Notes under the pieces: model-generated
Database searches by the model: none
The model's input: only the letters and a program-made list of their open reading frames with translations
What the model was told of the DNA's origin: nothing
Source of the DNA: Caryophanales bacterium UBA4856
GTDB lineage: Bacteria > Bacillota_I > Bacilli_A > RFN20 > CAG-288
Length of the DNA: 13,561 bases
Direction of reading: 5' to 3'
Assembly (NCBI GenBank): GCA_002399765.1
Contig: DHEG01000008.1
Location: 1-13,561, forward strand
In this document: piece by piece, positions 1 to 13,452 of the stretch
Position numbering within the stretch: the first letter of the stretch is position 1
How the letters are laid out: each line of letters starts with the position of its first letter
Position numbers and translations under genes: made by a program

Positions 1-1943
1 CCCGTGGTGGTGGTAAAGAAGGGACCACCCCTCTTAAGGCCCTGCTTGCCGGTCGAGATGACGCTGTTCTCCTGGGGATCCCTTACCACGACCTTGAGCT
101 CGAAACTGTCCTTGTCCTTCACGAAGGGGGTCAGGTCCGCCTCGAAGGGGACATAGCCGCCTTCATGGGTCGTCACCAAGATATCGTCGACATAGACTTC
201 GGCATACATATCGACACCCTCGAACACGACTATGGCATCGAAGCCCTTGGCATAGGGGGGGATCACCAAGTCCTTGGTATAGACCAGGGTATCGGAAGGA
301 TCGGGAAGGACATTGACCTTGGAAAGGGGGACCTCGGGGGCATAGGGAACATTTATCGGGCCGCTGTAGCGACTGCTGCCGCTCTTGGCGATCAGGGCCA
401 AGTCCCAACGCCCGCAAAGATCCAACGGCGTGGGGCCATCATGGCCGGAGAAAGGATTGAAACCCCTGTCCTCGGTGAAAGGATAAAAGTCAGGCAAGCG
501 GTCCTTGGGGGGATAAAGCAAACCCCGGTTAAGGGTGATGGTATCCCTCTTCCTTTGCCTATCGGCCATCCGGAAGAAGGGTATCGCCAAAAGCGTCACC
601 CCAAAGGCAAAGACGAAGAGGAACGGGGAGGGGTTGGCCGCCATCTGCCCACCGTCCTCGACCAAATGGGTTCCGGCGGGGAAAAGCCTATCGATGCCAA
701 AGCCTATATAAGGACCAGTCACCATCGAAAGCATCGAGACGACGATGAGGACAAAACCATTGAAGGCCCCTTCGTGGCCATGGGGAATCAAATCCCTTAT
801 CCGAGCATTCAGGGTCGAGGCCATGGTTATGTTTCCGACTACCGAGACCCCAATCGCCATCAAAGCCAAGACGGTCTTTCCATCGTCCACCCCACCGTTG
901 CCATCCCCTATCGGAGACACGAAGGCCATCAAAAGAAGGCCGGCGCCAAGAATCGCAAGGCTAAGGTAAGTGGCAAAGGACCTTCCGACGCGATCGGAAA
1001 GGAAGCCGACCGTTATCGGTATGGCAATGACGACGAGGGCAATGAAGAAGGCCCAGACCAAGACGAAGGTAGAGAAAGGTACCTCGCCATTGATCAGGCC
1101 GGTGAATCCCATCGTGTATTGGATGTAATCCATCTGGTAGGGATACCAGATCTGACCGGCGATGGCAAAGAGGGCATCCCCGGCAATGACGTAGTAAAGG
1201 GCCTTATGCCCCTTTACGGTATCGGGCTTGAAGGCAATGGCGACATCCTTTGCGAAGCTGCCTTCCAATGGCTTTGCCACTTCATGGGGTATCAACAGGA
1301 TGGAGACCAGGCCCACTGCGAATACCAAGCCCCCACACGCATAGAAGAAGGAGGGCCAGCCCAGGTTTCCCCGCTTTACCAAACCGAACAGAAGCAGGAA
1401 GCCGACAAGGCCGGAAAGGAAGGGTATTATGCCCAAAACCCCTTCGACTTTTCCCCGCCTGCCATTTGGGGTGTTGGCTATTATGTAGGAGATCAAGGCG
1501 GCATCGTTGGCGCTGCACCCAAAGAAGGTCATCAGGCAATCCAGAAGGATCACCAGGGCCACGGATACAATCGGACTTATTGCGAAAGTGCCACCGATCG
1601 CCTTGGGTGCGACCAGGCCGAAAGCCAAAGTGGAAAGCCCCCAGAGGAGGAAGCCGATTACTATGAAGGGCTTGCGGCGCCCGACATGGTCAGACAAAGA
1701 GCCCATGGCGATGGTCGTGATGGCAGCCACCACGGCTGACAAAGAGACGGCCAAGGACACATATAGTTCGTAATTGTCGGGGTGGATGTCATGGATGTAA
1801 TCGTTAAGGAAGACATTTTCCACAATCCAAGCCAATTGGCCTACTAGGGTCAAGGGGATGGCCAGGGCCCACATCCGGCCTTTCGAGGTACGGCTTATCT
1901 CCCTACAGTCTGGCGGCACTTTTTCCTCAGCCCTGCTTTCCAT
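1..1943 (-). CDS. MFS glycoside transporter fused to a GH2 glycoside hydrolase (C-terminus outside window)
   Basis: The reading frame is open from the ATG at 1943 to the window edge (647 complete codons). Residues 25-460 form a 12-helix MFS permease. The loop 2-3 signature GSLSDHVGRRK is at 81-91, its second-half counterpart GFLSDRVG at 313-320, and a GPH/SLC45-like stretch, RIRDLIPHGHEGAFNG, at 381-396. A charged linker (about 460-505) follows. Residues about 506-647 match the N-terminal jelly-roll of family 2 glycosidases: GRWDLAL, VPYAPEVPLS, VYVDDILVTTHEGGYVPFEADLT, and STGKQGLKRGG near the edge. The linker holds no stop, and there is no Met between residues 459 and 579, so a separate GH2 start is unlikely. 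Twelve helices would leave both termini in the cytoplasm, so the hydrolase would act on imported sugar (inference). The start is supported by AAGGAG eight bases upstream and an in-frame stop just before it. The substrate and the GH2 catalytic residues cannot be seen. Confidence 0.9.
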   Translation of the reverse strand, partial: MESRAEEKVPPDCREISRTSKGRMWALAIPLTLVGQLAWIVENVFLNDYIHDIHPDNYELYVSLAVSLSAVVAAITTIAMGSLSDHVGRRKPFIVIGFLLWGLSTLAFGLVAPKAIGGTFAISPIVSVALVILLDCLMTFFGCSANDAALISYIIANTPNGRRGKVEGVLGIIPFLSGLVGFLLLFGLVKRGNLGWPSFFYACGGLVFAVGLVSILLIPHEVAKPLEGSFAKDVAIAFKPDTVKGHKALYYVIAGDALFAIAGQIWYPYQMDYIQYTMGFTGLINGEVPFSTFVLVWAFFIALVVIAIPITVGFLSDRVGRSFATYLSLAILGAGLLLMAFVSPIGDGNGGVDDGKTVLALMAIGVSVVGNITMASTLNARIRDLIPHGHEGAFNGFVLIVVSMLSMVTGPYIGFGIDRLFPAGTHLVEDGGQMAANPSPFLFVFAFGVTLLAIPFFRMADRQRKRDTITLNRGLLYPPKDRLPDFYPFTEDRGFNPFSGHDGPTPLDLCGRWDLALIAKSGSSRYSGPINVPYAPEVPLSKVNVLPDPSDTLVYTKDLVIPPYAKGFDAIVVFEGVDMYAEVYVDDILVTTHEGGYVPFEADLTPFVKDKDSFELKVVVRDPQENSVISTGKQGLKRGGPFFTTTT

Positions 1944-1973
1944 GGCGATGGCTCCTTAAGACATTTCGGCATA

Positions 1974-2075: not shown

Positions 2076-3212
2076 ATGGCAAAAGTCTTACCTGAAGAAG
2101 CCTTGACATTCGATGACGTACTCCTCCTTCCCCAATATTCCGAAGTCACACCCGATATGGTCGATACCTCCTTGACCCTGGCACCGGGACTGAGGCTAAA
2201 CATCCCCGTCCTTTCGGCGGCCATGGACACGGTCACGGAAAAGGATTTGGCCATCGCCTTGGCAAAGGTAGGCGGGATGGGGATAATCCACAAGAACATG
2301 ACCATCGCGGCCCAGGCCGCCCAGATCGAAAAGACCAAGGAGGAGAAAGTGGATCTGGCCGAGTTCCCCAAGGCAGCCGTGGACGGCAAGGGAAGGCTAT
2401 TGGTAGGGGGAGCCTTGGGCATCACTTCCGACATGATGGAAAGGGCCAAGGCCCTTATCGAAGTCGGAGTCGACATGGTCGGACTGGATTCGGCCCACGG
2501 CTATACCCTCAATGTCATGAAGGCCTTGAAGTCCCTACGGGAAAGGTTTCCCAAACTGGTGATAATGGTCGGCAACGTCGCAACCTACGAGGGAGCCAAG
2601 GCTTTGGCGACCAACGGGGCCTCGGTCGTCAAGGTGGGAATGGGGCCCGGCTCGATATGCACGACCCGCATAATCTCGGGCATGGGTGTCCCTCAGCTTT
2701 CGGCGGTCTTGGCCTGCGCCAAGGTCACCGCCGAGACTGGCATCCCCGTCGTCGCCGATGGCGGCATACGCTATTCGGGCGATGTGACCAAGGCCTTGGC
2801 CGCCGGAGCCAAGGCGGTGATGATCGGTTCCCTGTTCGCCCAGACGGAAGAAGCTCCCGGAAAGGTGGTCATTATCGCTGGCAAGAAATACAAGGCTTAT
2901 CGGGGCATGGGCTCGATCGAGGCCATGGACCAGGCCCATGGCTCCTCGGATCGCTACTTCCAGGCCGGCCATAAGAAACTGGTGGCCGAGGGCGTGAGTG
3001 GCTATGTGCCCTTGAAGGGTAATGTGAGCGCCGTCGCCTTCCAGCTGATGGGCGGATTGAGGTCTGGCATGGGCTATCTTGGCGCCAAAGACCTAACCGA
3101 ACTGAACGATAAGGCAGTATTCATCAAAATCACCAATAATGGCATCCTCGAATCCCATCCCCATGATGTGAAGGTCTTGCACGACGAGCCGAACTACGAT
3201 GGCATAAAGTGA
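2076..3212 (+). CDS. guaB: IMP dehydrogenase lacking the CBS (Bateman) module
   Basis: Catalyses NAD-dependent oxidation of IMP to XMP, the first committed step of GMP synthesis. The 378-residue product starts with the usual [14 protein letters not shown]. The loop GPGSICTTR carries the catalytic Cys195. [10 protein letters not shown], the IMP-binding YRGMGS and the flap dyad Arg293-Tyr294 (GSSDRYF) are all present, so it should be active. IMP dehydrogenases are usually near 480-490 residues because two CBS domains are inserted after the third helix of the barrel. Here GMGIIHKNM runs through a short linker (about 90-103) directly into [12 protein letters not shown]. Similar CBS-less forms are known, for example in Borrelia. 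It has lost the domain through which purine nucleotides tune other family members. Start chosen for GGAGG five bases upstream. pepC follows 76 bases later. Confidence 0.96.
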
Positions 3213-3288: not shown

Positions 3289-4653
3289 ATGAGTAAGCAA
3301 ATAGACGAAAAAGACTTGGCGGCTTTTGCCAAATCCTTCGACGCCGACAAAGTTAACACCATCGCCAGGAACGCCGTATCGCGCAATGGCGTATTCAATG
3401 CGGCTTTCGACAGCCAGGCCTTGCGAAAGATTCCCCAGACCTTCTCGGTAGAGGTCAAGGAGACTGGCTCGATAACCAACCAGAAGCAGTCCGGACGCTG
3501 CTGGATGTTCGCCGGCCTCAACGTAATCCGCACCATCGCCATGAAGAAACTAAAGGTCAAGGATCTGGAACTCTCCGAGTCCTACCTAATGTTCTACGAC
3601 AAGCTCGAGAAGTCCAATTTCGAATTGGAGACTTTGCTTGAGCATCTCGACGAGCCGGACAATTCCCGTCTCCTCGACTACATCACCTCTTTGGGTGGCC
3701 ATCAGGACGGTGGCTACTGGAGCTTCTTCGTCAACTTGGTGAGGAAGTACGGTGTCGTACCCATCGCCGCCGAGCCTGAGACCATCCCCTCTTCCGCTTC
3801 CGGCGAGATGGACAGTGTCCTTAGCACTCTTCTCGCCAAGGCCATAGCTACCATCCGCGGAGCATATAAGGCGGGCAAAAAGCTTCCTGAGTTAAGGAAG
3901 ATCAAGGATGGTTTCGTCGCCCAAGTATACAAGATCTTGGCCATTTCCTTAGGTAAGCCCGTAACTGAGTTCACCTACGAGTACGAAGAGACTCCCGATT
4001 CCAAGGCCAAGGATGCCAAGCCGACCTTCAAGCGCATAACCATGACCCCGAAGGAGTTCTTCGACAAGTATGTCGGTGACGATCTTGGGGATTATGTCCC
4101 CCTGCTCAACTTCCCCTCTCCCGCTTACCCAATCCACGAGCGCTATGCCGTAAAGATCATGGGCAACGTGGTCGGAGGCGAACCCGAGACCGCGGTAAGC
4201 GTCACCCTGAAGGAATTCCAGGATGCCATAATCGCCAGTCTCAAAGGCGGCGAGGTATGCTGGTTCGGTGCCGATGTCTTGGCCCGTTCGTTCCGCAAGG
4301 AAGGGTTCCTGGCCTATTCGCTCTTGGATCTTAACGATTTGTTTTCCACCGATCTTTCACTCGATAAGGGTTCGGCCTTGACTTTCAAGGCCGTTCAAGT
4401 CAACCACGCCATGACCTTCACCGGTGTCGACTTGGATGACAAAGGGCAACCGACCCGTTGGAAGGTCGAAAACTCCTGGGGCGATTCCGTCGGTGCCAAG
4501 GGCTTCTTCGTTATGGACCAGGGTTGGTTCGAGAACTATGTCTTCGAGGTCATCGTGAACAAGAAGTTCCTGCCCAAGGACATCGTAGCCTTGGCAACCA
4601 AGAAGCCTGTCGAAGTGGAGCCTTGGGCACCCTTCAACATGATGCTGAAGTGA
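3289..4653 (+). CDS. pepC: Aminopeptidase C / bleomycin hydrolase (peptidase family C1B)
   Basis: A cytoplasmic papain-like cysteine aminopeptidase that trims N-terminal residues from peptides; family members form self-compartmentalised hexamers. The 454 residues match the usual length of about 445-455. The oxyanion glutamine and nucleophile are in NQKQSGRCWMFA (Gln65, Cys71), the catalytic histidine in VNHAMTF (His373) and the asparagine in VENSWG (Asn395), so the triad is complete. There is no signal peptide. The C-terminal tail (EPWAPFNMMLK) carries a few residues beyond the point where homologues end, which matters because that tail enters the active site in this family. The start has AAGGAG ten bases upstream, a slightly long spacing. 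It lies downstream of guaB and ends at a strong hairpin. Arginine codons are mostly CGC/CGT, consistent with good expression. Confidence 0.96.
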   Translation: MSKQIDEKDLAAFAKSFDADKVNTIARNAVSRNGVFNAAFDSQALRKIPQTFSVEVKETGSITNQKQSGRCWMFAGLNVIRTIAMKKLKVKDLELSESYLMFYDKLEKSNFELETLLEHLDEPDNSRLLDYITSLGGHQDGGYWSFFVNLVRKYGVVPIAAEPETIPSSASGEMDSVLSTLLAKAIATIRGAYKAGKKLPELRKIKDGFVAQVYKILAISLGKPVTEFTYEYEETPDSKAKDAKPTFKRITMTPKEFFDKYVGDDLGDYVPLLNFPSPAYPIHERYAVKIMGNVVGGEPETAVSVTLKEFQDAIIASLKGGEVCWFGADVLARSFRKEGFLAYSLLDLNDLFSTDLSLDKGSALTFKAVQVNHAMTFTGVDLDDKGQPTRWKVENSWGDSVGAKGFFVMDQGWFENYVFEVIVNKKFLPKDIVALATKKPVEVEPWAPFNMMLK

Positions 4654-4673
4654 TTTCTCTCATCCTGAGCATT

Positions 4674-4706
4674 AAAAGGAGCCTCCTTGTAAGGAGGCTC
4701 TTTTTG
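4674..4706. terminator. Bidirectional terminator between pepC and the MDR oxidoreductase
   Basis: GAGCCTCC pairs with GGAGGCTC across TTGTAA (4679-4700). It is followed by TTTTT on the plus strand and by CCTTTT on the minus strand. It sits between the convergent 3' ends of pepC (4653) and the minus-strand oxidoreductase (4750) and can serve both. Confidence 0.9.
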
Positions 4707-4749
4707 TTGCTCGGACAATGTACACACCACGAGAGCCGGAAATGGCCAA

Positions 4750-5766
4750 TCACCTTATCTTGAGGACTATTTTGCCCTTGACCCTTCCCGATTCTTGGTA
4801 ATCAAGTGCTTCCTGGACCCTGCCGAACGGATATACCCTGTCGATGACGGGCACGATGCTTCCCCTCTCGATCAGATCCGCGATAACGCCAAGCTGCTTC
4901 CCGCTGGGCTTCATGAGAAGAAAGGAATATTTGGCCTTGTGCCTTGCCTCATGGAAAGAAATTCTGGCGGCCAAGATACCAAGGAGATTTCTTTTGATGA
5001 ACCCATAGCCGTGTTCGATGCCGAATCGGCGGTTAGGCAATCCGGCGATAGAGACGATTCTCCCACCTTTCCTAAGGACCTTGAATGACCTCAAGAGAAT
5101 CTTTCCGCCCAAAGTGTCGAACACGGCATCATAGTCATGAAGCCTGTCTTCGAACTTCTCGTTTCGGTAATCGACGATCTCATCCGCTCCCAATCTCTTG
5201 ACCAACTCAAAGCCCTTTTGGCTTGCGGTTGTCGCGACGTAGGCACCCATCTGCTTCGCCAGTTGGATCGCAAAGGTTCCGATGCCACCGGCACCAGCAT
5301 GGATAAGTATCTTCTCCTTTGGCTTGAGGCGCAAGACATCATGGAGAGCCTGGTAATCCGTCAGGCCAACCAAGGGAATGGATGCGGCTTGTTCAAAGGA
5401 AAGATTGGATGGCATCGAGGCAATCTCGGAAACATCAATGGCAATGTACTCGGCAAAAGTCCCGATCCTATCTTTGTCAGGGCGGCCGTAGACATTGTCC
5501 CCGACTTTGAATTTGACGACGTTCCTGCCAACCTCAACCACCGTTCCCGAAAAATCATTGCCCATGATGAGCGGAAGCTTGAATTTCAGGAACATCCTGA
5601 ACCTACCGTCCTTGATCTTGAAGTCGATGGGATTGACGCTGGCGGCATGAATCGAGACCAAGACATCGTTATCGCCCACGGTTGGAATCGGTACTTTCCT
5701 AAACTCCACCGGCCCTTTCCCGTATCTCGAGATCATGCAGACATTCATCAGCAATCCGTCTTTCAT
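4750..5766 (-). CDS. MDR-superfamily NAD(P)-dependent quinone oxidoreductase-like protein
   Basis: A zinc-free medium-chain dehydrogenase/reductase of the quinone oxidoreductase type, probably reducing quinones or enones with NADPH. The GroES-like N-terminal part has VLVSIHAASVNPIDFKIKDG and the conserved GNDFSGTVVEVG. The nucleotide-binding part has HAGAGGIGTFAIQLAKQMGA, followed by GADEIVDYRNEKF and VFDTLGG. The C-terminus, VKGKIVLKI, is typical. The zinc ligands of alcohol dehydrogenases are absent. From the chosen ATG it is 338 residues. GGTGG lies six bases upstream; a second ATG at 5748 (MNVCMISRYGKG) aligns better with the family N-terminus, so the start is uncertain by six codons. It lies downstream of an aldo/keto reductase on the same strand, but 343 bases separate them, so it may have its own promoter. 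Confidence 0.9.
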   Translation of the reverse strand: MKDGLLMNVCMISRYGKGPVEFRKVPIPTVGDNDVLVSIHAASVNPIDFKIKDGRFRMFLKFKLPLIMGNDFSGTVVEVGRNVVKFKVGDNVYGRPDKDRIGTFAEYIAIDVSEIASMPSNLSFEQAASIPLVGLTDYQALHDVLRLKPKEKILIHAGAGGIGTFAIQLAKQMGAYVATTASQKGFELVKRLGADEIVDYRNEKFEDRLHDYDAVFDTLGGKILLRSFKVLRKGGRIVSIAGLPNRRFGIEHGYGFIKRNLLGILAARISFHEARHKAKYSFLLMKPSGKQLGVIADLIERGSIVPVIDRVYPFGRVQEALDYQESGRVKGKIVLKIR

Positions 5767-6109
5767 ACTCGGCCACCCCCATTTCCCGCAATGTTTGCCA
5801 TAAAAAGCTTGTTCTTCTTTTGGTAACTTTCGCCCCTGTTTGCCTTTGATTCCCAAAGGTAGCAGTCTTGAGAAAAATGCGTACTGCCAAATGATAGGAG
5901 GTCTGACAAGAATTGCTGGTTCATTCCCAAATTGCCAGAAATCATTTCGTATATTGAACGGCTTAGGTTACCTAAGGAAAACAAGGACGCCCCCATGGCG
6001 CAAGAGGGCTTCAATGCAGCCGAGCAAGAAAAGACAAACCGGGACGGGGCCGCTCTTGACCTATCCGACCCCTAGGTGACAAAAGCGTATGATTTTGGGT
6101 GAGGATCCT
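5767..6109. other. 343-bp non-coding stretch upstream of the MDR gene
   Basis: No reading frame here has family resemblance or a good ribosome binding site. It holds a perfect 15-bp palindrome (5962-5976) and a hairpin CCTTTG-ATTCC-CAAAGG (5843-5859) without a T-run. AT-rich bases on the minus strand (CAATATACG, 5956-5948) could be a -10 region, but no clear promoter can be drawn. It probably contains the promoter and a long leader of the MDR gene. Confidence 0.6.
5962..5976. promoter_or_regulatory. Perfect 15-bp palindrome, candidate operator
   Basis: CTTAGGT-T-ACCTAAG has seven-base arms around one base. It lies about 195 bases upstream of the MDR start. The core TTAGGTTA...CCTAA recalls DtxR-family boxes and the dyads of MerR-family regulators of redox genes, but it matches neither well enough to name the regulator. 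Confidence 0.5.
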
Positions 6110-7021
6110 TCACGGCAAGAGGTTCCCGCTGGCAGCATAGAGGCTATACCAATCGGCTTTGGAAAGCCTTATCGCGGTGCCTTCCAAGGCTTCCTTGATA
6201 TGGTCAATATTGACGGACCCCGTGACAACCCGTATTCCATTCCAGGGAGTGGTTATGAAAGATGTCGCAATACCAGACGGAGTGGAGTGATACTTCTCAG
6301 CCAGTTCCCTAAGCTTTGCCTGAGTCTTGGAATAGCCAGGATCCGTCAGGACGTTGCCCTTGAAGAACTCAACCTGCAAAGGGCTCCAGGCCTCAAGGTC
6401 CATGTTCTTCTCCTTGAAGTAGAAGAACAGATTGGGCGCAAGGCTCTCATGGCCCGGATTCAGGTTGTTGGTGTTGACCACATCGGCAAAGAGGTTGGCG
6501 TGGCCAAGGCCTATTTGATATTGGCCGGTCTCAAACTTGAGTTCGCCTAACCCTTTAGACAGGTATTCGATCATCTGGATGGGGAAATTGGAGACGCCGA
6601 AGTGGGCCACCTTTCCCTGGCGGTGAAGCTCATTCAGGGCCTCACCTACCTCGTTGGCATCGGCAAAGATATCCGGCCTATGGAGTAGCAGGCTATCGAC
6701 ATGGTCGGTATTGAGCCTCTTGAGCGAGCCATCGACCGCTTCCAGGATATGGGCGCGGGAGAAATCATAATGGGAATTGTTGCCGGCGCTGTCCCGCACT
6801 ATCCCGGCCTTGGTCTGGAGGAAGAACCTGTCCCTCAAGCCAGGTTCCTTGGCAAAGGCCTCTCCCAACTTCTGCTCGGACTGACCATTCATGTAGACAT
6901 CGGCGATGTCTATCTCCCTGATGCCCAAATCGTAAGATTGATGAAGGAGCGTCACCAATTGGTCGACGCTCGTCTTCTCGAGTCTCATCAGGCCCAGGGC
7001 CATTCTTCCTTTTCCAGTCAT
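6110..7021 (-). CDS. Aldo/keto reductase, YdhF-like
   Basis: An NADPH-dependent carbonyl reductase of the TIM-barrel AKR superfamily, 303 residues, predicted cytoplasmic. The catalytic tetrad is visible: Asp38 and Tyr43 in EIDIADVYMNGQSE, Lys71 in FLQTKAGI and His114 in SLLLHRPD. The GVSNF strand follows. In the cofactor region, TPWNGIRVVTGSVNIDHIKEA replaces the more usual PIPGT, as in the YdhF group. The substrate is unknown. The start is set by GGAGG (7033-7029) seven bases upstream; in-frame ATG codons further upstream would add an implausible Met- and Cys-rich extension. It is divergent from the DegV gene, with 125 bases between the starts, and is followed on the same strand by the MDR oxidoreductase. 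Confidence 0.93.
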   Translation of the reverse strand: MTGKGRMALGLMRLEKTSVDQLVTLLHQSYDLGIREIDIADVYMNGQSEQKLGEAFAKEPGLRDRFFLQTKAGIVRDSAGNNSHYDFSRAHILEAVDGSLKRLNTDHVDSLLLHRPDIFADANEVGEALNELHRQGKVAHFGVSNFPIQMIEYLSKGLGELKFETGQYQIGLGHANLFADVVNTNNLNPGHESLAPNLFFYFKEKNMDLEAWSPLQVEFFKGNVLTDPGYSKTQAKLRELAEKYHSTPSGIATSFITTPWNGIRVVTGSVNIDHIKEALEGTAIRLSKADWYSLYAASGNLLP

Positions 7022-7028
7022 GCATTTA

Positions 7029-7033
7029 CCTCC
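7029..7033 (-). promoter_or_regulatory. Ribosome binding site that sets the AKR start
   Basis: GGAGG on the minus strand with a seven-base spacer to the ATG at 7021. It decides against the in-frame starts up to 7114. Confidence 0.85.
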
Positions 7034-7092
7034 GGAATTGATTTTAGTATTCATGTGGCAATCCATCATCATGTGATGCCCATAACTTTCTA

Positions 7093-7121
7093 AAGACAAA
7101 CACCCGAAGAACATTTAAAAT
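7093..7121 (+). promoter_or_regulatory. Promoter of the DegV gene
   Basis: AAGACA (7093-7098) and TAAAAT (7116-7121) are separated by 17 bases, about 25 bases before the DegV ATG. The -35 matches consensus at four of six positions and the -10 at five of six. Confidence 0.55.
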
Positions 7122-7146
7122 TAAGGAAACCGAAAGTGAGGCTAAG

Positions 7147-8031
7147 ATGGCCAAGGTAAAACTGATAATAGATTCCGATTGCAACCTCGAGAAAGGCTTG
7201 GCTGAACAATATGGGGCGATCGTCGTTCCTTCGACGATAATCGTCGATGGCCAGGAATACAAAGACGGGTTTACCATAACGCCCAGGGACATCTACCGTC
7301 TTTCAAGCGTCAAGGGCAAGCCGTTGCCAAAGACAAGTGCCATAAACGAAGCGGACTTCTACGAACCCTTCAGGAAAGCGTTGGCCGAATATGACGGGGC
7401 GGTGTTCATCACCATCTCGGCTGCCCTGTCCGCTTCCTATCGCAACGCCATGATGGCAATCCAGGCCCTGAACGTCCAAGACCGGATAGTTGCCATCGAT
7501 ACCAAGTCCCTTTCCTGCGGCATCGCAATCGTGGCCGAGAGGGCGGCGGCCGACATTGCCAAGGGCTTTCCGCTAATGGCCATGAAGAAGGACCTTGACG
7601 ATGTGGCCGCAAGAACCACGGTCGAATTCGTGATCGATACCCTCGATAACCTCTATAAGGGCGGACGTTGCTCCGGTCTGTCCTACATCTTCGGCAAGGC
7701 CCTCCACATCCATCCCGTAATCGGCATGGACCCGGTAGGCCATCTCTTCCCCCTACATAAGGTCAGGGGCAAGGACATCGGCAATGGCGTGGAGCAGATA
7801 TTCCAGGATTTCAAGAAGGACTGGGATGAGGACAACGTCGACAAGACCCTGCCCGTCTATTGCACCCATGCCGCCGCCGATCCCTGGGAGAGACTTGCGA
7901 CTGCCAAGGTGAAAGCCCTGGTGGGAAACCAGATGGTCGTCAGGAATTCCGAAGCCTCAAGCGTCATCGCGGTCCATTGCGGACCCGGTACCTTCGGCAT
8001 CGGCTGGACCCGCAAGAAGCCCAATGCCTAA
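7147..8031 (+). CDS. DegV family protein (fatty-acid-binding, FakB-like)
   Basis: DegV/FakB proteins bind a fatty acid between two domains. In Bacillota several of them present it to the kinase FakA for phosphorylation and use in phospholipid synthesis; others have no assigned role. The 294 residues match the family length of about 280-290. The family landmarks are present in order: KLIIDSDCNL at the N-terminus, VVPSTIIVDGQEY, the lipid-head-group TS in LPKTSAIN, ITISAALSASYRNA, AIDTKSLSCGIA, and VEFVIDTLDNLYKGGRCS. The usual SGTY motif is SASY here. No FakA gene is in the window. The start has GTGAGG five bases upstream. An AKR gene follows after 46 bases with no terminator between, so the two may be co-transcribed. 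Confidence 0.94.
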   Translation: MAKVKLIIDSDCNLEKGLAEQYGAIVVPSTIIVDGQEYKDGFTITPRDIYRLSSVKGKPLPKTSAINEADFYEPFRKALAEYDGAVFITISAALSASYRNAMMAIQALNVQDRIVAIDTKSLSCGIAIVAERAAADIAKGFPLMAMKKDLDDVAARTTVEFVIDTLDNLYKGGRCSGLSYIFGKALHIHPVIGMDPVGHLFPLHKVRGKDIGNGVEQIFQDFKKDWDEDNVDKTLPVYCTHAAADPWERLATAKVKALVGNQMVVRNSEASSVIAVHCGPGTFGIGWTRKKPNA

Positions 8032-8050
8032 AGGCCTTGGGGATTTAGAT

Positions 8051-8056
8051 TATAAT
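8051..8056 (+). promoter_or_regulatory. Possible -10 element before the second AKR gene
   Basis: A perfect TATAAT lies 27 bases before the AKR ATG, just after the DegV stop. Transcription from it would begin about 8063, so the leader would start almost at the Shine-Dalgarno sequence. No good -35 is seen. Confidence 0.3.
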
Positions 8057-8062
8057 ATTCCT

Positions 8063-8069
8063 AAGGAGG
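8063..8069 (+). promoter_or_regulatory. Ribosome binding site that sets the second AKR start
   Basis: AAGGAGG with an eight-base spacer to the ATG at 8078. It rules out the in-frame ATG at 8024, which overlaps the end of the DegV gene. Confidence 0.9.
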
Positions 8070-8077
8070 TCGTGATA

Positions 8078-8926
8078 ATGGCTATAAAGGATTTGAAACT
8101 CAACGATGGCAATGCCATCCCCGGGATCGGATTCGGTACCTGGCAGATTCCCGATGGTCCCGTTTGCGTTCAGGCGGTCGAATGGGCCATAGAGGCTGGG
8201 TATCGTCTTATCGATACCGCCGTCGGCTATGGCAACGAGAAGAGCGTGGGCCAGGCCATCAAGGAGAGCCACATGCCCCGCGAGCGCCTGTTCATCTCGA
8301 CCAAGGTCCAAGGCGACACCAAGACCTATGAAGGCGCCAAGACCGAAATCGACGCTTCCCTGGAAAGGCTTGGGGTCTCCTACATAGACCTCGTCCTGAT
8401 CCACTGCGCCAAGCCCTGGAAGGAATACTACGGCGTCTCCTACAAGAGCTACAACGAGGAAAACCTCCAGGTCTGGAAGGCCTTGGTCGAAGCCCAAAAG
8501 GCCGGCAAGGTCAAATCAATCGGGGTCTCGAACTTCGGTCCCAGGGCCTTGGCCAACATCGTCGACAATTCGAGCGTGGTCCCCGCCGTCGACCAGATCC
8601 GCTATTTCATCGGCCTTGACCAAGGCGAGAAGGCGACCACCGACTATTGCAAGGCCCATGGCATCGTGGTCGAAGCCTATTCGCCTTTGAATACCGGGGA
8701 GATATTGGGCAATACCCGGATTGGGGCCATAGCCAAGAAGTACAACGTAACCATCCCCAGACTCGCCTTGGCCTATTGCGTAAACAAGGGTTACATCCCC
8801 TTGCCCAAATCCACTCACGAACAATGGATAAGGGCCAACCTGGACTGTGATCTTGCCTTGGATCCCGCCGATATGGCTTACCTGGATTCCGTCAAATATT
8901 TAGGTTCCTTCCGTCAACCCGACTGA
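8078..8926 (+). CDS. Aldo/keto reductase, 2,5-diketo-gluconate reductase (DkgA/YvgN) type
   Basis: An NADPH-dependent aldehyde/ketone reductase of 282 residues, the usual size for the small prokaryotic AKR5-like enzymes. It starts with KLNDGNAIPGIGFGTWQI. The catalytic tetrad is Asp46 and Tyr51 (LIDTAVGYGNE), Lys76 (FISTKV) and His109 (DLVLIHCAKPW). GVSNF, the EAYSPL strand and the cofactor-binding IPLPKSTHEQWIRANL follow. Family members reduce methylglyoxal, diketogluconate and other small carbonyls; which applies here cannot be read from the sequence. It lies 46 bases after the DegV gene in the same direction and ends at a strong hairpin. It is only distantly similar to the minus-strand AKR at 6110-7021, so the two are not a recent duplication. 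Confidence 0.95.
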   Translation: MAIKDLKLNDGNAIPGIGFGTWQIPDGPVCVQAVEWAIEAGYRLIDTAVGYGNEKSVGQAIKESHMPRERLFISTKVQGDTKTYEGAKTEIDASLERLGVSYIDLVLIHCAKPWKEYYGVSYKSYNEENLQVWKALVEAQKAGKVKSIGVSNFGPRALANIVDNSSVVPAVDQIRYFIGLDQGEKATTDYCKAHGIVVEAYSPLNTGEILGNTRIGAIAKKYNVTIPRLALAYCVNKGYIPLPKSTHEQWIRANLDCDLALDPADMAYLDSVKYLGSFRQPD

Positions 8927-9393: not shown

Positions 9394-10491
9394 TCAATCC
9401 TTTGCCAACAGGGGCCTGGCCAACGCCAGGTCTTTTTCGTCTAAGCCCTTCAGGTCCTTCGCGGTCACCAACCGGAAATGGTCATAGGTAAAGCCTGGGC
9501 TGACCATGCAACCGACCAAGGAATAGCCTTGTCTGCAGACACTTCCGAAGATGGTCCCGGCCTTGACCAATACCTGGGGGCTTTCCCCCTCGTCGGGATC
9601 GAGACCCAATTTCGCAATGCTAAGCTTTCCGGCCTCGATCTTCACGATGTCCAAAGGACTCCCCTTTTGGAAATACCAAAGCTCGTCTTCCTTAAGGACA
9701 TGGAGATGGCTGGCCTGGCCTTTTGCAAGCAAGAACAGGATCGATGAGTAGGAATTGTCCTGGGGCCGGAACGTCTCGCGAAAATAGCCCCCTTCCGGAT
9801 GAGGCGTAAGGCCGAGTTTCAGCCACAGCGGCTCGAAGGAATCATCGTTTCCGGCCCACTCCTTCATAAAGCCGGCGACGAACTCGTGCATGGTCTGTTC
9901 CCTATAGATGGCAATCTCCTTGGCCGTCTTGGTGTTCATCAGGTCTCCGAGGAGGAACAGCTTCTCCCGGAAGTGATTGATGGTAGTCCCCTTGTGGGCC
10001 TTGTATTCCTTCCAATCCATGTCCAAGGCCACGGGTATGTTGGGATCGTAAATGGGGTTGCCTTTGTGGCCGCCATAGGCGAAGGCCCTCCCAATCCCGA
10101 TGTATCCCAAGGCATCGAGACGATCGGCGTCCTGGACTATTTGGCCCTCCAGGCTATCGGGCTTGACGCTGTCCTTGCCCTTGAAGGAGACCTGGCCGAT
10201 TATGTGGAGCACCTGGCCAGTCAGATGGGCCGGGGCATCGATGGAAAGGAGGAATTTCCCGGCATTGGGATAAGCGTTGCCGCTGTCGCCGAATAGCTTG
10301 TAGTCATCCACGTCATGGAGCAGGGCGGCCAAAGAGATCACGAATCGGTCCCCACCTTCTCTTATGGCTATGTAGCGCGACAGGCAAAAGACCCTGAATG
10401 TGTGGGCGAAGTCATGGCCGGAACTATCGGAGGCGAATAGACCTTTGGCATAGGCCAAGGCTTGGGTTATAACTGCGGCTTCATTTTCCAT
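9394..10491 (-). CDS. HD-domain phosphohydrolase fused to a cupin_5 (DUF985) domain
   Basis: Two domains in one 365-residue chain. Residues about 1-215 are an HD hydrolase of the YedJ-like group: the metal ligands are His30 (HDFAHTFRV), His59-Asp60 (LLHDVDDYK) and Asp121 (QDADRLDALG). Such enzymes hydrolyse phosphate esters, often of nucleotides, but this subgroup has no firm substrate. Residues about 222-345 are a DUF985/cupin_5 barrel: LGLTPHPEGGYFRETFR, then SHLHVLKEDELWYF with His262, His264 and Glu268 as likely metal ligands, then GCMVSPGFTYDHFRL. DUF985 proteins are normally stand-alone, with roles mostly unknown. A GAGAG sequence seven bases upstream supports the ATG at 10491. No signal peptide. 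The last codons overlap the apparent terminator of the convergent MazG-like gene. Confidence 0.92.
   Translation of the reverse strand: MENEAAVITQALAYAKGLFASDSSGHDFAHTFRVFCLSRYIAIREGGDRFVISLAALLHDVDDYKLFGDSGNAYPNAGKFLLSIDAPAHLTGQVLHIIGQVSFKGKDSVKPDSLEGQIVQDADRLDALGYIGIGRAFAYGGHKGNPIYDPNIPVALDMDWKEYKAHKGTTINHFREKLFLLGDLMNTKTAKEIAIYREQTMHEFVAGFMKEWAGNDDSFEPLWLKLGLTPHPEGGYFRETFRPQDNSYSSILFLLAKGQASHLHVLKEDELWYFQKGSPLDIVKIEAGKLSIAKLGLDPDEGESPQVLVKAGTIFGSVCRQGYSLVGCMVSPGFTYDHFRLVTAKDLKGLDEKDLALARPLLAKD
9415..9437 (+). terminator. Terminator of the MazG-like gene, inside the convergent HD-cupin gene
   Basis: CCTGGC-CAAC-GCCAGG is followed by TCTTTTT. It begins 41 bases after the MazG-like stop but lies within the last codons of the opposite-strand gene, where it encodes part of LALARP. 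Confidence 0.7.
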
Positions 10492-10564: not shown

Positions 10565-11425
10565 CTAGGCAGTTGTTGAAGAAGACAAGGCCACGTCTAT
10601 GAAACCATCGTCGCCGAGGAAGTGATCGACCAAGGAGCCGAACTCATCGGTGAAAGTAGAGAAATTGCTGGGATCGCCAGAGGTGATGGAAGTGGAGAAG
10701 CCATTCATGGCGAAGACCGGTTCGGTTTCAAGAAGCTCATTGCTGGCATCGTTCTTGTAGATGGCCCAGGTGTTGGCGGGGACGGAAAGCACGCCAGTAT
10801 TGCTCGAATCCACCTTGCTATGCCAAGAGGTGCTGCTGCTGCCATAGGTATAGGTCTTGGCATTCACGGTGGTGAAGGTCTTGTTGTTTATGCTTGAGTC
10901 ATAGAAGAGACCCATGTTGTATGACATCTGGTCCAACTGCTCCGAAGTGAAGTCGTAATCATCCTCATCGGCATCGTAAGTCCTGGTGACATCGACGGTG
11001 ACCAGGCTCTTGTAAAGATTCTCTTGGTAATAGTTGTTCTTCTTGGCATCGCTGGAGAATATTCCATCCTTGAGGTAATAGCCTATGCCCGTGCTGCTCG
11101 AGTCATCGGGGGAATAGAAATAGACGACGGTATAGCCGGTCTGGGTATTGGTCTTCTTTATCTGCTCGTTCAGGTTCTTGTAGTTCTTGCGCCTGTCTTC
11201 CAAATAGTCGATGTATTCCGCATCCTCGTCGGAATCGGCCGTAGCGGCCTCGATGATATAAGGAATGGAGAAAACGACGCCAAAGACCAGTATCACCACC
11301 AAGACAACCTGAACCCAAGCCGTTTCCTTGAACCAGAGCCAACTGGCCTGGAACGCCCTGATGAACGGATTAGTCGAAAAGCCAGTGCTGTATTTATTGT
11401 TGCTGGCATCCGTTTTCTTTGCCAT
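10565..11425 (-). CDS. Single-pass membrane protein of unknown function, possible cysteine-free thioredoxin-like domain
   Basis: I do not recognise the family. The 286-residue product has a cytoplasmic N-terminus of about 37 residues, one hydrophobic helix (about 38-62, VQVVLVVILVFGVVFSIPYII) and an extracytoplasmic part rich in Ser, Thr, Asp, Asn and Tyr. A short charged helical stretch (DYLEDRRKNYKNLNEQIKK) follows the membrane segment. The outer part then has the strand order of a thioredoxin fold: TVVYFYSPDDSS where thioredoxins have VxFxAxWCxxC, LVTVDVTRTYD, and SVPANTWAIYKND where the cis-Pro loop would lie. The whole protein contains no cysteine, so it could not be a disulphide enzyme; the fold assignment is inference. 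The start has GGAGG six bases upstream. It has its own strong promoter and terminator, divergent from ldh. Confidence 0.85.
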   Translation of the reverse strand: MAKKTDASNNKYSTGFSTNPFIRAFQASWLWFKETAWVQVVLVVILVFGVVFSIPYIIEAATADSDEDAEYIDYLEDRRKNYKNLNEQIKKTNTQTGYTVVYFYSPDDSSSTGIGYYLKDGIFSSDAKKNNYYQENLYKSLVTVDVTRTYDADEDDYDFTSEQLDQMSYNMGLFYDSSINNKTFTTVNAKTYTYGSSSTSWHSKVDSSNTGVLSVPANTWAIYKNDASNELLETEPVFAMNGFSTSITSGDPSNFSTFTDEFGSLVDHFLGDDGFIDVALSSSTTA

Positions 11426-12882: not shown

Positions 12883-13452
12883 GTGAAAATACTCTACGTG
12901 GTAGGGCATCCCTATCAGGGCTCTTTCAACCATGCGATCATGACCACGTTCGTCAAGGCCGCCAAAGTCCACAGCAACGTCGAGGTAGTGGATCTTTCCG
13001 CTTCCGACTTTGATCCGGTCTTGCGCTTCGGTTACGCCAAGAGGATGGAAGACGAGTTTTTGATATTGCGCTCAAAGCAATATCTGCAATGGGCCGATAG
13101 GATCGTATTCGCCTTTCCCGAATGGTGGGGAATGATGCCATCTGTCCTCTCCGGCTGGATTGCCAGAGTCTTCACTCCCGGGCTCGCCTATAACATCAAC
13201 GGCTTCAAGGTGAGCAAATTGCTGGCCGGAAAGACAGCCAACGTCATAATTACCTCCAGTGCACCCCGGATCATATGGCCATTTGTGGGCAACGGCGGTT
13301 TCAAGGTCTTGAAGAAGAATCTCTTTTACGTAACCGGCATCAAGGACGTGAAAGACTTCTACCTGGATCTTCTGAATACCAATATGGACTCCCCAAAGAG
13401 AAGGAAGAAATTCCTGGACAAAATCGAGAAATACGCCCTTGAATTAAAATAA
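12883..13452 (+). CDS. Flavodoxin-like NAD(P)H oxidoreductase (NQO1/MdaB family)
   Basis: A predicted cytoplasmic FMN- or FAD-dependent oxidoreductase of 189 residues, which in this family transfers two electrons from NAD(P)H to quinones or similar acceptors. The flavin phosphate loop is GHPYQGSFNHAI near the N-terminus. VVDLSASDFDPVL follows, then the conserved strand and loop FAFPEWWGMMPSVLSGWIARVF, then a region (TSSAPRII) where homologues contact the flavin. The gene starts with GTG, directed by GGAGG seven bases upstream. A TATGAT (12847-12852) could be the -10, without a clear -35. It follows the ldh terminator, so it is probably its own unit, and ends at a hairpin. Its acceptor is unknown; a quinone or electrophile-defence role is an inference from family. 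Confidence 0.9.
   Translation: MKILYVVGHPYQGSFNHAIMTTFVKAAKVHSNVEVVDLSASDFDPVLRFGYAKRMEDEFLILRSKQYLQWADRIVFAFPEWWGMMPSVLSGWIARVFTPGLAYNINGFKVSKLLAGKTANVIITSSAPRIIWPFVGNGGFKVLKKNLFYVTGIKDVKDFYLDLLNTNMDSPKRRKKFLDKIEKYALELK

Follow-up and report, generated by a model that had tools for sequence, protein, structure and literature searches.

The 13,561-nucleotide stretch of DNA analyzed here (the window) corresponds to positions 1 to 13,561 of contig DHEG01000008.1 from Caryophanales bacterium UBA4856 (assembly GCA_002399765.1). Its left end is occupied by a single minus-strand open frame that runs without a stop from an ATG at 1943 to the window edge at 1 (647 codons), and that joins a sugar permease of the major facilitator superfamily (MFS) to the sugar-binding domain of a glycoside hydrolase of family 2 (GH2). 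The full-length version of the protein, a 1059-amino acid sequence named P0002, has other residues in place of both catalytic glutamates of the enzyme. Judging from the sequence, there is about an even chance that the gene codes for a permease whose GH2 domain is catalytically dead and serves to bind sugar or to regulate. The features of the gene are the following.

1..1943, minus strand: MFS-GH2 fusion gene, 3' part beyond the window edge; codes within the window for residues 1-647 of roughly 1059 (full-length form P0002)
528..1886, minus strand: 12-helix MFS permease domain, residues 20-472 (Pfam match, structure model)
438..527, minus strand: linker, residues 473-502, resembling the N-terminus of stand-alone GH2 relatives
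3..437, minus strand: GH2 N-terminal sugar-binding (jelly-roll) domain, residues 503-647, with the Ig-like and TIM-barrel domains past the window edge
1952..1957, minus strand: AAGGAG of the Shine-Dalgarno sequence TAAGGAG, upstream of the start codon (duplex −8.2 kcal/mol)

A preliminary description of this DNA had proposed that a complete MFS domain leads within one polypeptide into a GH2 sugar-binding domain, and the open frame together with the Pfam matches bore this out. MFS_1 matched residues 60-411 with 94.4 bits (cut-off 33.4) and Glyco_hydro_2_N matched residues 546-631 with 43.1 bits (cut-off 28). The structure model includes eleven long permease helices and a split twelfth (441-472), and hydropathy agrees. 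PF13347 (MFS_2), the profile of the GPH family named in the preliminary description, found no match in the window protein, P0001 (E up to 1), or in P0002 (E up to 0.01); among their kin it has sub-cut-off matches in P0003 and P0031 and precomputed ones in several relatives. The MFS part had no match by sequence in the PDB at E up to 1. As had also been described, Met is absent from residues 459-579. The statement that the join has no ribosome binding site was somewhat too firm: a weak one precedes TTG 483 (AAGGAC, −5.1 kcal/mol; another in-frame TTG is at codon 475), and the values for TTG 452 and for ATG 579, within the GH2 domain, are −6.0 and −6.4 kcal/mol. Weak, minor internal initiation is therefore possible. 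Third-position GC is even along the frame, with 0.64-0.71 in blocks of 100 codons as far as residue 600 and 0.85 in the short final block. An open frame of 578 codons on the opposite strand of the fusion gene (window 3-1739, plus strand) is probably a shadow of these GC-rich third positions.

P0002 is identical to the window protein at 646 of the 647 common residues and represents a cluster of 6 sequences from 5 contigs, one of which is perhaps the window contig. It has no early stop past the window edge and adds the TIM barrel, and it includes both the N-terminal sugar-binding and the TIM-barrel domains of GH2. PF00703 (Ig-like) had no match in P0002 at E up to 0.01; strands are modelled at residues 653-752, and the fold was aligned as a whole. 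No frameshift was seen near the join, and a frameshift, indel or assembly artefact at this point is very unlikely because P0002, one residue different, spans it and because many other fusions exist (65 of 129 other proteins with MFS beside GH2); the size of the P0002 cluster and the synteny with another genome, G004, described below, agree with this. The window does end at residue 647, and a chimeric assembly or a wrong continuation past its edge could in principle have produced the P0002 sequence used here. The near identity over the common residues, the 5 contigs, the synteny and the many other fusions make this extremely improbable.

The preliminary description expected the rest of a GH2 enzyme past the window edge. 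The TIM barrel is there in P0002, but the two catalytic Glu are replaced. The acid/base position, after barrel strand 4, lies in the sequence FNEGWGQ in most relatives and in FNQGWGE (Q897) in P0002. The presumed nucleophile position, assigned from its place at the end of barrel strand 7, is typically within LSEFGGY in relatives and within LSKSFGL (K959) in P0002. Glu is found at both positions in all 129 other proteins and in all 238 aligned relatives, including the sisters of P0002, P0050 and P0051; the 238 may include repeats between loci and protein clusters, four of them (L017, L018, P0127 and P0137) are aligned in the C-terminal part only, and L026 and L033 lack the first columns. Glu901 was considered as a compensating catalytic residue and ruled out, since relatives have it alongside Glu897.

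The closest solved relative with characterised activity that was found is ORF1110 from Streptomyces (9j6m/9j6n), which cleaves pNP-beta-D-Galf and neither pNP-alpha-L-Araf nor pNP-beta-D-galactopyranoside (PMC4560423). Replacement by Ala of D423, E464, E405 and E530 of ORF1110 left 1.8%, 2.6%, 9.7% and 15.2% activity, respectively (PMC4560423). In the alignment these residues correspond to G829, Q897, Q811 and K959 of P0002, with an ORF1110 numbering offset of 23 that was worked out by hand and is consistent at nine mutated acidic residues. P0002 has therefore replaced the two most sensitive residues of ORF1110 and two more. Three other residues are kept (D330, E594 and D201, equivalent to D736, E1022 and D622 of P0002), their mutants having 6.5%, 11.3% and 15.5% activity, and D500, whose mutant has 9.8% (PMC4560423), falls in a loop without reliable alignment to P0002. 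While E573 is named as the nucleophile of ORF1110 in PMC11084152, we infer from the barrel position and the mutagenesis table that it is E530, the equivalent of K959.

The replacements in P0002 are not limited to these positions. Seventy-two columns of the GH2 alignment are invariant at 95% or more, of which P0002 keeps 57 and loses 15 (Y643F, S647T, E656L, Y741R, Q773H, G774C, R805K, K809N, E811Q, D829G, E897Q, Y941L, E959K, G961F and T1014W). On the catalytic face, defined by the C-terminal ends of the barrel strands in the model as a stand-in for three-dimensional distance, it loses 11 of 28 invariants, as compared to none in 211 of the 238 relatives, one in 24, two in 2 and five in a single one, L102. 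Outside this face P0002 loses 4 of 44 and keeps 40, other rows losing 0-5. Within the barrel the face takes 11 of the 11 losses and 17 of the 33 kept invariants (Fisher p 0.003, the zone having been picked after the losses were known), and four zone widths across all domains gave p values of 0.0017 to 0.013. The sisters lose one invariant each on the face, with 5 outside in P0050 and 3 in P0051; Y741R is common to the three proteins and S647T to P0002 and P0051. On the tree P0002 ends in a branch of 0.88, only somewhat longer than the 0.65 of P0050 and the 0.70 of the P0051 pair. This looks like a selective loss of catalysis in a protein whose scaffold was kept, and the model predicts an intact GH2 fold for P0002. 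Given Gln897, Lys959 and the further active-site losses, P0002 is not expected to hydrolyze glycosides in the manner of GH2, and such hydrolysis can be considered very unlikely.

The locus L102 (1462-4437), a fusion with both Glu kept, carries D772Y, G774P, K809S, E811P and G834T among the 28 face invariants and is perhaps a second active-site variant.

The permease half has changed too. It keeps E42, N43, D147, R163, E167 and Q264, but it has lost N151, T155, R398 and P406, each found in 96% or more of relatives. When compared with 156 relatives (rows with 330 or fewer aligned residues were dropped), it has lost 6 of the 53 columns invariant at 95% (Y98F, S143C, N151I, T155I, R398V and P406S); the highest numbers of losses among the relatives themselves were 13 and 10, in two of them, followed by 5. 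With respect to 98 fused-length relatives it has lost 11 of 62, others at most 5. None of the 24 closest sequences listed has these changes, save for a Ser at N151 in three; two do not have the 398-406 region.

The loss of conserved residues in both halves could mean that both were retuned to another ligand and that the former active site now carries out a different chemistry. The closest enzymes to the GH2 half are the furanose-active ones, which a 2025 division of GH2 places in group III (GH2_18/19), where Thr replaces the −1 subsite Trp (PMC12243196). This Thr is present in all 238 relatives, and P0002 has Trp1014 in that column, which we assigned by our own mapping via the 9j6n alignment. 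GH2_19 proteins with the NE motif changed to TV, NA or NQ, of unknown activity, are reported in the same paper (PMC12243196), and a replaced acid/base Glu alone has thus a printed precedent. While T1014W and these variants would fit a retuned enzyme, P0002 has no candidate nucleophile or acid in place of the two Glu, Glu901 being present together with Glu897 in relatives, and we regard retuning as improbable.

Many relatives have this fused architecture, which the preliminary description had proposed to look for. In the first protein search 11 of 46 proteins had both MFS and GH2 domains, and an MFS profile stands beside GH2 in 66 of 130 proteins examined (P0002 counted in both cases); the second search listed 120 of 155 proteins, and the examination covers those listed. 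A fused frame was found in 18 of 80 public loci (best 80 of 597), and in the Bacilli order of locus L001 a relative was present in 178 of 279 genomes (E up to 1e-30) and a fused frame in 21. One of the fused loci, L017, is from a cultured isolate, Acetatifactor muris DSM 23669, and has an open frame of 1153 codons. In another locus counted among the 18, L006 (1419-4400), the MFS part is split into two adjacent frames, the copy being a pseudogene or an assembly error, and in G013, among the 21 fused genomes, the MFS part is incomplete. Two patterns were used to find the 80 loci, and since the intact motif FNEGWGQ was one of them, this set is biased towards an intact acid/base; the protein and genome searches used no such pattern. 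GH2 frames at 400 bits or less (locus set) or 250 or less (later sets) were dropped, by which the remote GH2 genes of L009 and L037 were left out, as were L081 and L082, which duplicate L001 and L015. No match above 45% identity to P0002 was among those listed in the 279 genomes, and P0002-like DNA had no exact peptide-pattern match in viral contigs.

Separate genes in relatives had been named as evidence that would speak against the fusion. Both forms exist, and the fusion is not refuted by this. At 22 loci a separate GH2 gene directly follows an MFS gene, the nearest candidate GH2 start being within 23 bases of the MFS stop in all 22 and overlapping it in 19. The GH2 tree has 113 rows, comprising 38 fused genes, 21 adjacent ones, 51 that stand alone or lie at a contig edge and 3 without a label. 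It needs 13 changes of the fused label, and well-supported branches force 9 of these (FastTree only). The distances of the MFS and GH2 parts are correlated across 59 loci and P0002 (Mantel r 0.85, with 0 of 2000 permutations as high), a value to which shared host descent contributes. From the tree changes, the adjacent pairs and the correlation, the two halves appear to be long-standing partners that have repeatedly become fused or split apart. The same GH2 family is joined to a galactokinase (PF10509, PF00288) in P0158 (887 amino acids), which points to a galactose-type product, and to DUF2804 (PF10974) in P0058, P0067 and P0074, two of which are named as from Mumia.

The proposal that the fusion protein imports a glycoside and cleaves it is thus a fair inference for the relatives, which retain both catalytic Glu; in them the importer would pass its glycoside, which may be a galactofuranoside, on to a hydrolase placed at its exit. 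For the window's own protein, a one-protein uptake and hydrolysis system that is active could be argued from the architecture and Glu residues common to its relatives, the correlated distances, the galactokinase fusion and the 1.8-15% activity retained by single catalytic mutants of ORF1110 (PMC4560423), but P0002 lacks both catalytic Glu as well as the D423 and E405 equivalents, and we consider this very improbable.

The two neighbors of the fusion gene that follow are conserved in G004 (locus L114), which has the best GH2 match among the whole genomes listed (45% over residues 471-1047).

2085..3212, plus strand: IMP dehydrogenase, divergent neighbor of the fusion gene
3289..4653, plus strand: second syntenic neighbor, which we take to be a PepC-like peptidase

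Seven of the 12 window genes have the same order and orientation in G004, with identities of 49% for GH2 (window residues 472-647), 63% for IMP dehydrogenase, 55% for the presumed PepC-like peptidase, 83% for MazG, 38% for an HD protein, 44% for an unnamed protein and 76% for LDH; the five remaining genes (4750-8926 and 12883-13452) had no match in the 20 kb of G004 compared. The HD gene (window 9394-10491, minus strand) joins an HD domain to Cupin_5 (DUF985), and its L114 counterpart (4641-5549) is shorter (302 vs 365 amino acids). The unnamed protein (window 10565-11425, minus strand), of 286 amino acids with a hydrophobic N-terminal stretch, matched no Pfam family at E up to 1e-4. Inspection by eye of the open frames around five fused loci, without a family scan of the neighbors, revealed no sugar operon.

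The window and G004 probably belong to one order. At the position of the fusion, G004 carries GH2 as a gene of its own (595 amino acids), and no permease relative was found in its draft genome at E up to 1e-30; the permease was therefore either lost in G004 or gained in the window lineage. A locus that is labile in the closest whole-genome relative found would also be compatible with a GH2 half in decay, a functionless passenger of a sugar-importing permease that persists by its fusion or as a folding aid. The lost catalytic face and the losses in the MFS part can be read in the same way. However, the 1059 codons remain open in a cluster with 5 contigs, invariants off the catalytic face were kept (40 of 44) while those on it were lost (11 of 28), and the end branch is not much longer than those of the sisters with intact Glu. 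Decay is the main rival explanation, less probable but to be taken seriously.

In the explanation given about even chances, a covalent module of gut Bacilli in which a permease carries a GH2 pseudoenzyme for binding or regulation, the MFS part would import or sense a galactofuranoside-like or other glycoside, and the GH2 fold, on the cytoplasmic side of the permease, would bind the sugar without cutting it. The sugar-bound domain could then gate transport, retain the sugar or signal its presence, in a working mode to be likened to that of the IIA domain of LacS or of an engineered galactofuranose "neolectin" and not to that of a hydrolase. Several points weigh against this explanation. The catalytic positions lie beyond the window and were read from P0002 instead of the window contig, one sequence being known from its cluster, and the change is seen in this cluster only. 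R805K, Y941L and T1014W may abolish binding as well. In ORF1110 the E464Q mutation merely weakened the enzyme (56-fold lower efficiency, PMC11084152) and E530A kept 15% (PMC4560423). The fused L102 lost five catalytic-face invariants yet has both Glu, the Fisher test used a zone picked with the losses in hand, and the loss of N151, T155 and R398 is equally compatible with a changed specificity, a role as sensor and decay.

A bolder version would make the protein a receptor-permease, in which a galactofuranosidase-like enzyme has, on losing both catalytic Glu, become a natural lectin for furanoses that is covalently attached at the cytoplasmic mouth and controls a permease itself altered towards sensing, the wider family being true uptake-and-hydrolysis machines. 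We hold this version only tentatively, and find it rather unlikely; if true, it would represent a bacterial counterpart of transporter-derived sugar sensors. The family includes natural fusions of a sugar importer with a likely hydrolase that repeatedly arise or dissolve, and therefore the physical coupling of transport with the first catabolic step is testable by cutting the linker. The window's member contrasts with it, as its enzyme has probably turned into a dead, possibly regulatory domain, and could serve as a natural test of the change from hydrolase to sensor.

No description of a natural MFS-GH2 fusion was found in the literature searched in full text, although a 2019 survey of MFS fusions may list one, and the literature matches listed held nothing relevant on pseudoenzyme or transceptor analogues. 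Fused relatives are already in public databases, some named just "MFS transporter" (e.g., P0070 and P0079). Glycoside hydrolase genes and transporters are treated as neighboring genes in the survey PMC10272396, as far as its available text goes, and C-terminal domain fusions to MFS transporters are a known phenomenon (PMC10710835). Such transporters, with a soluble domain at the C-terminus of an MFS part, are of the same general kind as the fusion protein; the domains named in the available part of the latter paper are CBS, CNBD, PAS and UspA, GH2 not being among them. LacS resembles the fusion in having a sugar permease and a joined cytoplasmic regulatory domain; unlike the glycosidase fold of the fusion, however, its IIA domain accepts phosphoryl (PMC10710835).

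On the enzyme side, ORF1110, the beta-D-galactofuranosidase of Streptomyces sp. JHA19 (GH2_18 according to PMC12243196), has no permease, and its catalytic Glu and its group III Thr are in place, their counterparts in P0002 being Gln, Lys and Trp. PDB 7sf2, by its title a beta-galactosidase of Bacteroides cellulosilyticus, also has no permease and keeps both Glu. The GH2_19 proteins without the NE motif (e.g., PDB 7xyr) are, like P0002, group III GH2 proteins with a replaced acid/base Glu, and the portion of PMC12243196 at hand mentions neither a permease fusion nor a nucleophile loss in them. The E464Q mutant of ORF1110 (LC073694), known as GalfNeoLect, has the same acid/base change from Glu to Gln as P0002, and became a galactofuranose-binding neolectin that hydrolyzes weakly (catalytic efficiency 56-fold lower, Km 166 vs 250 uM; PMC11084152). 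While GalfNeoLect is engineered and soluble, with the rest of its active site intact, P0002 is natural, fused to a permease and more heavily changed.
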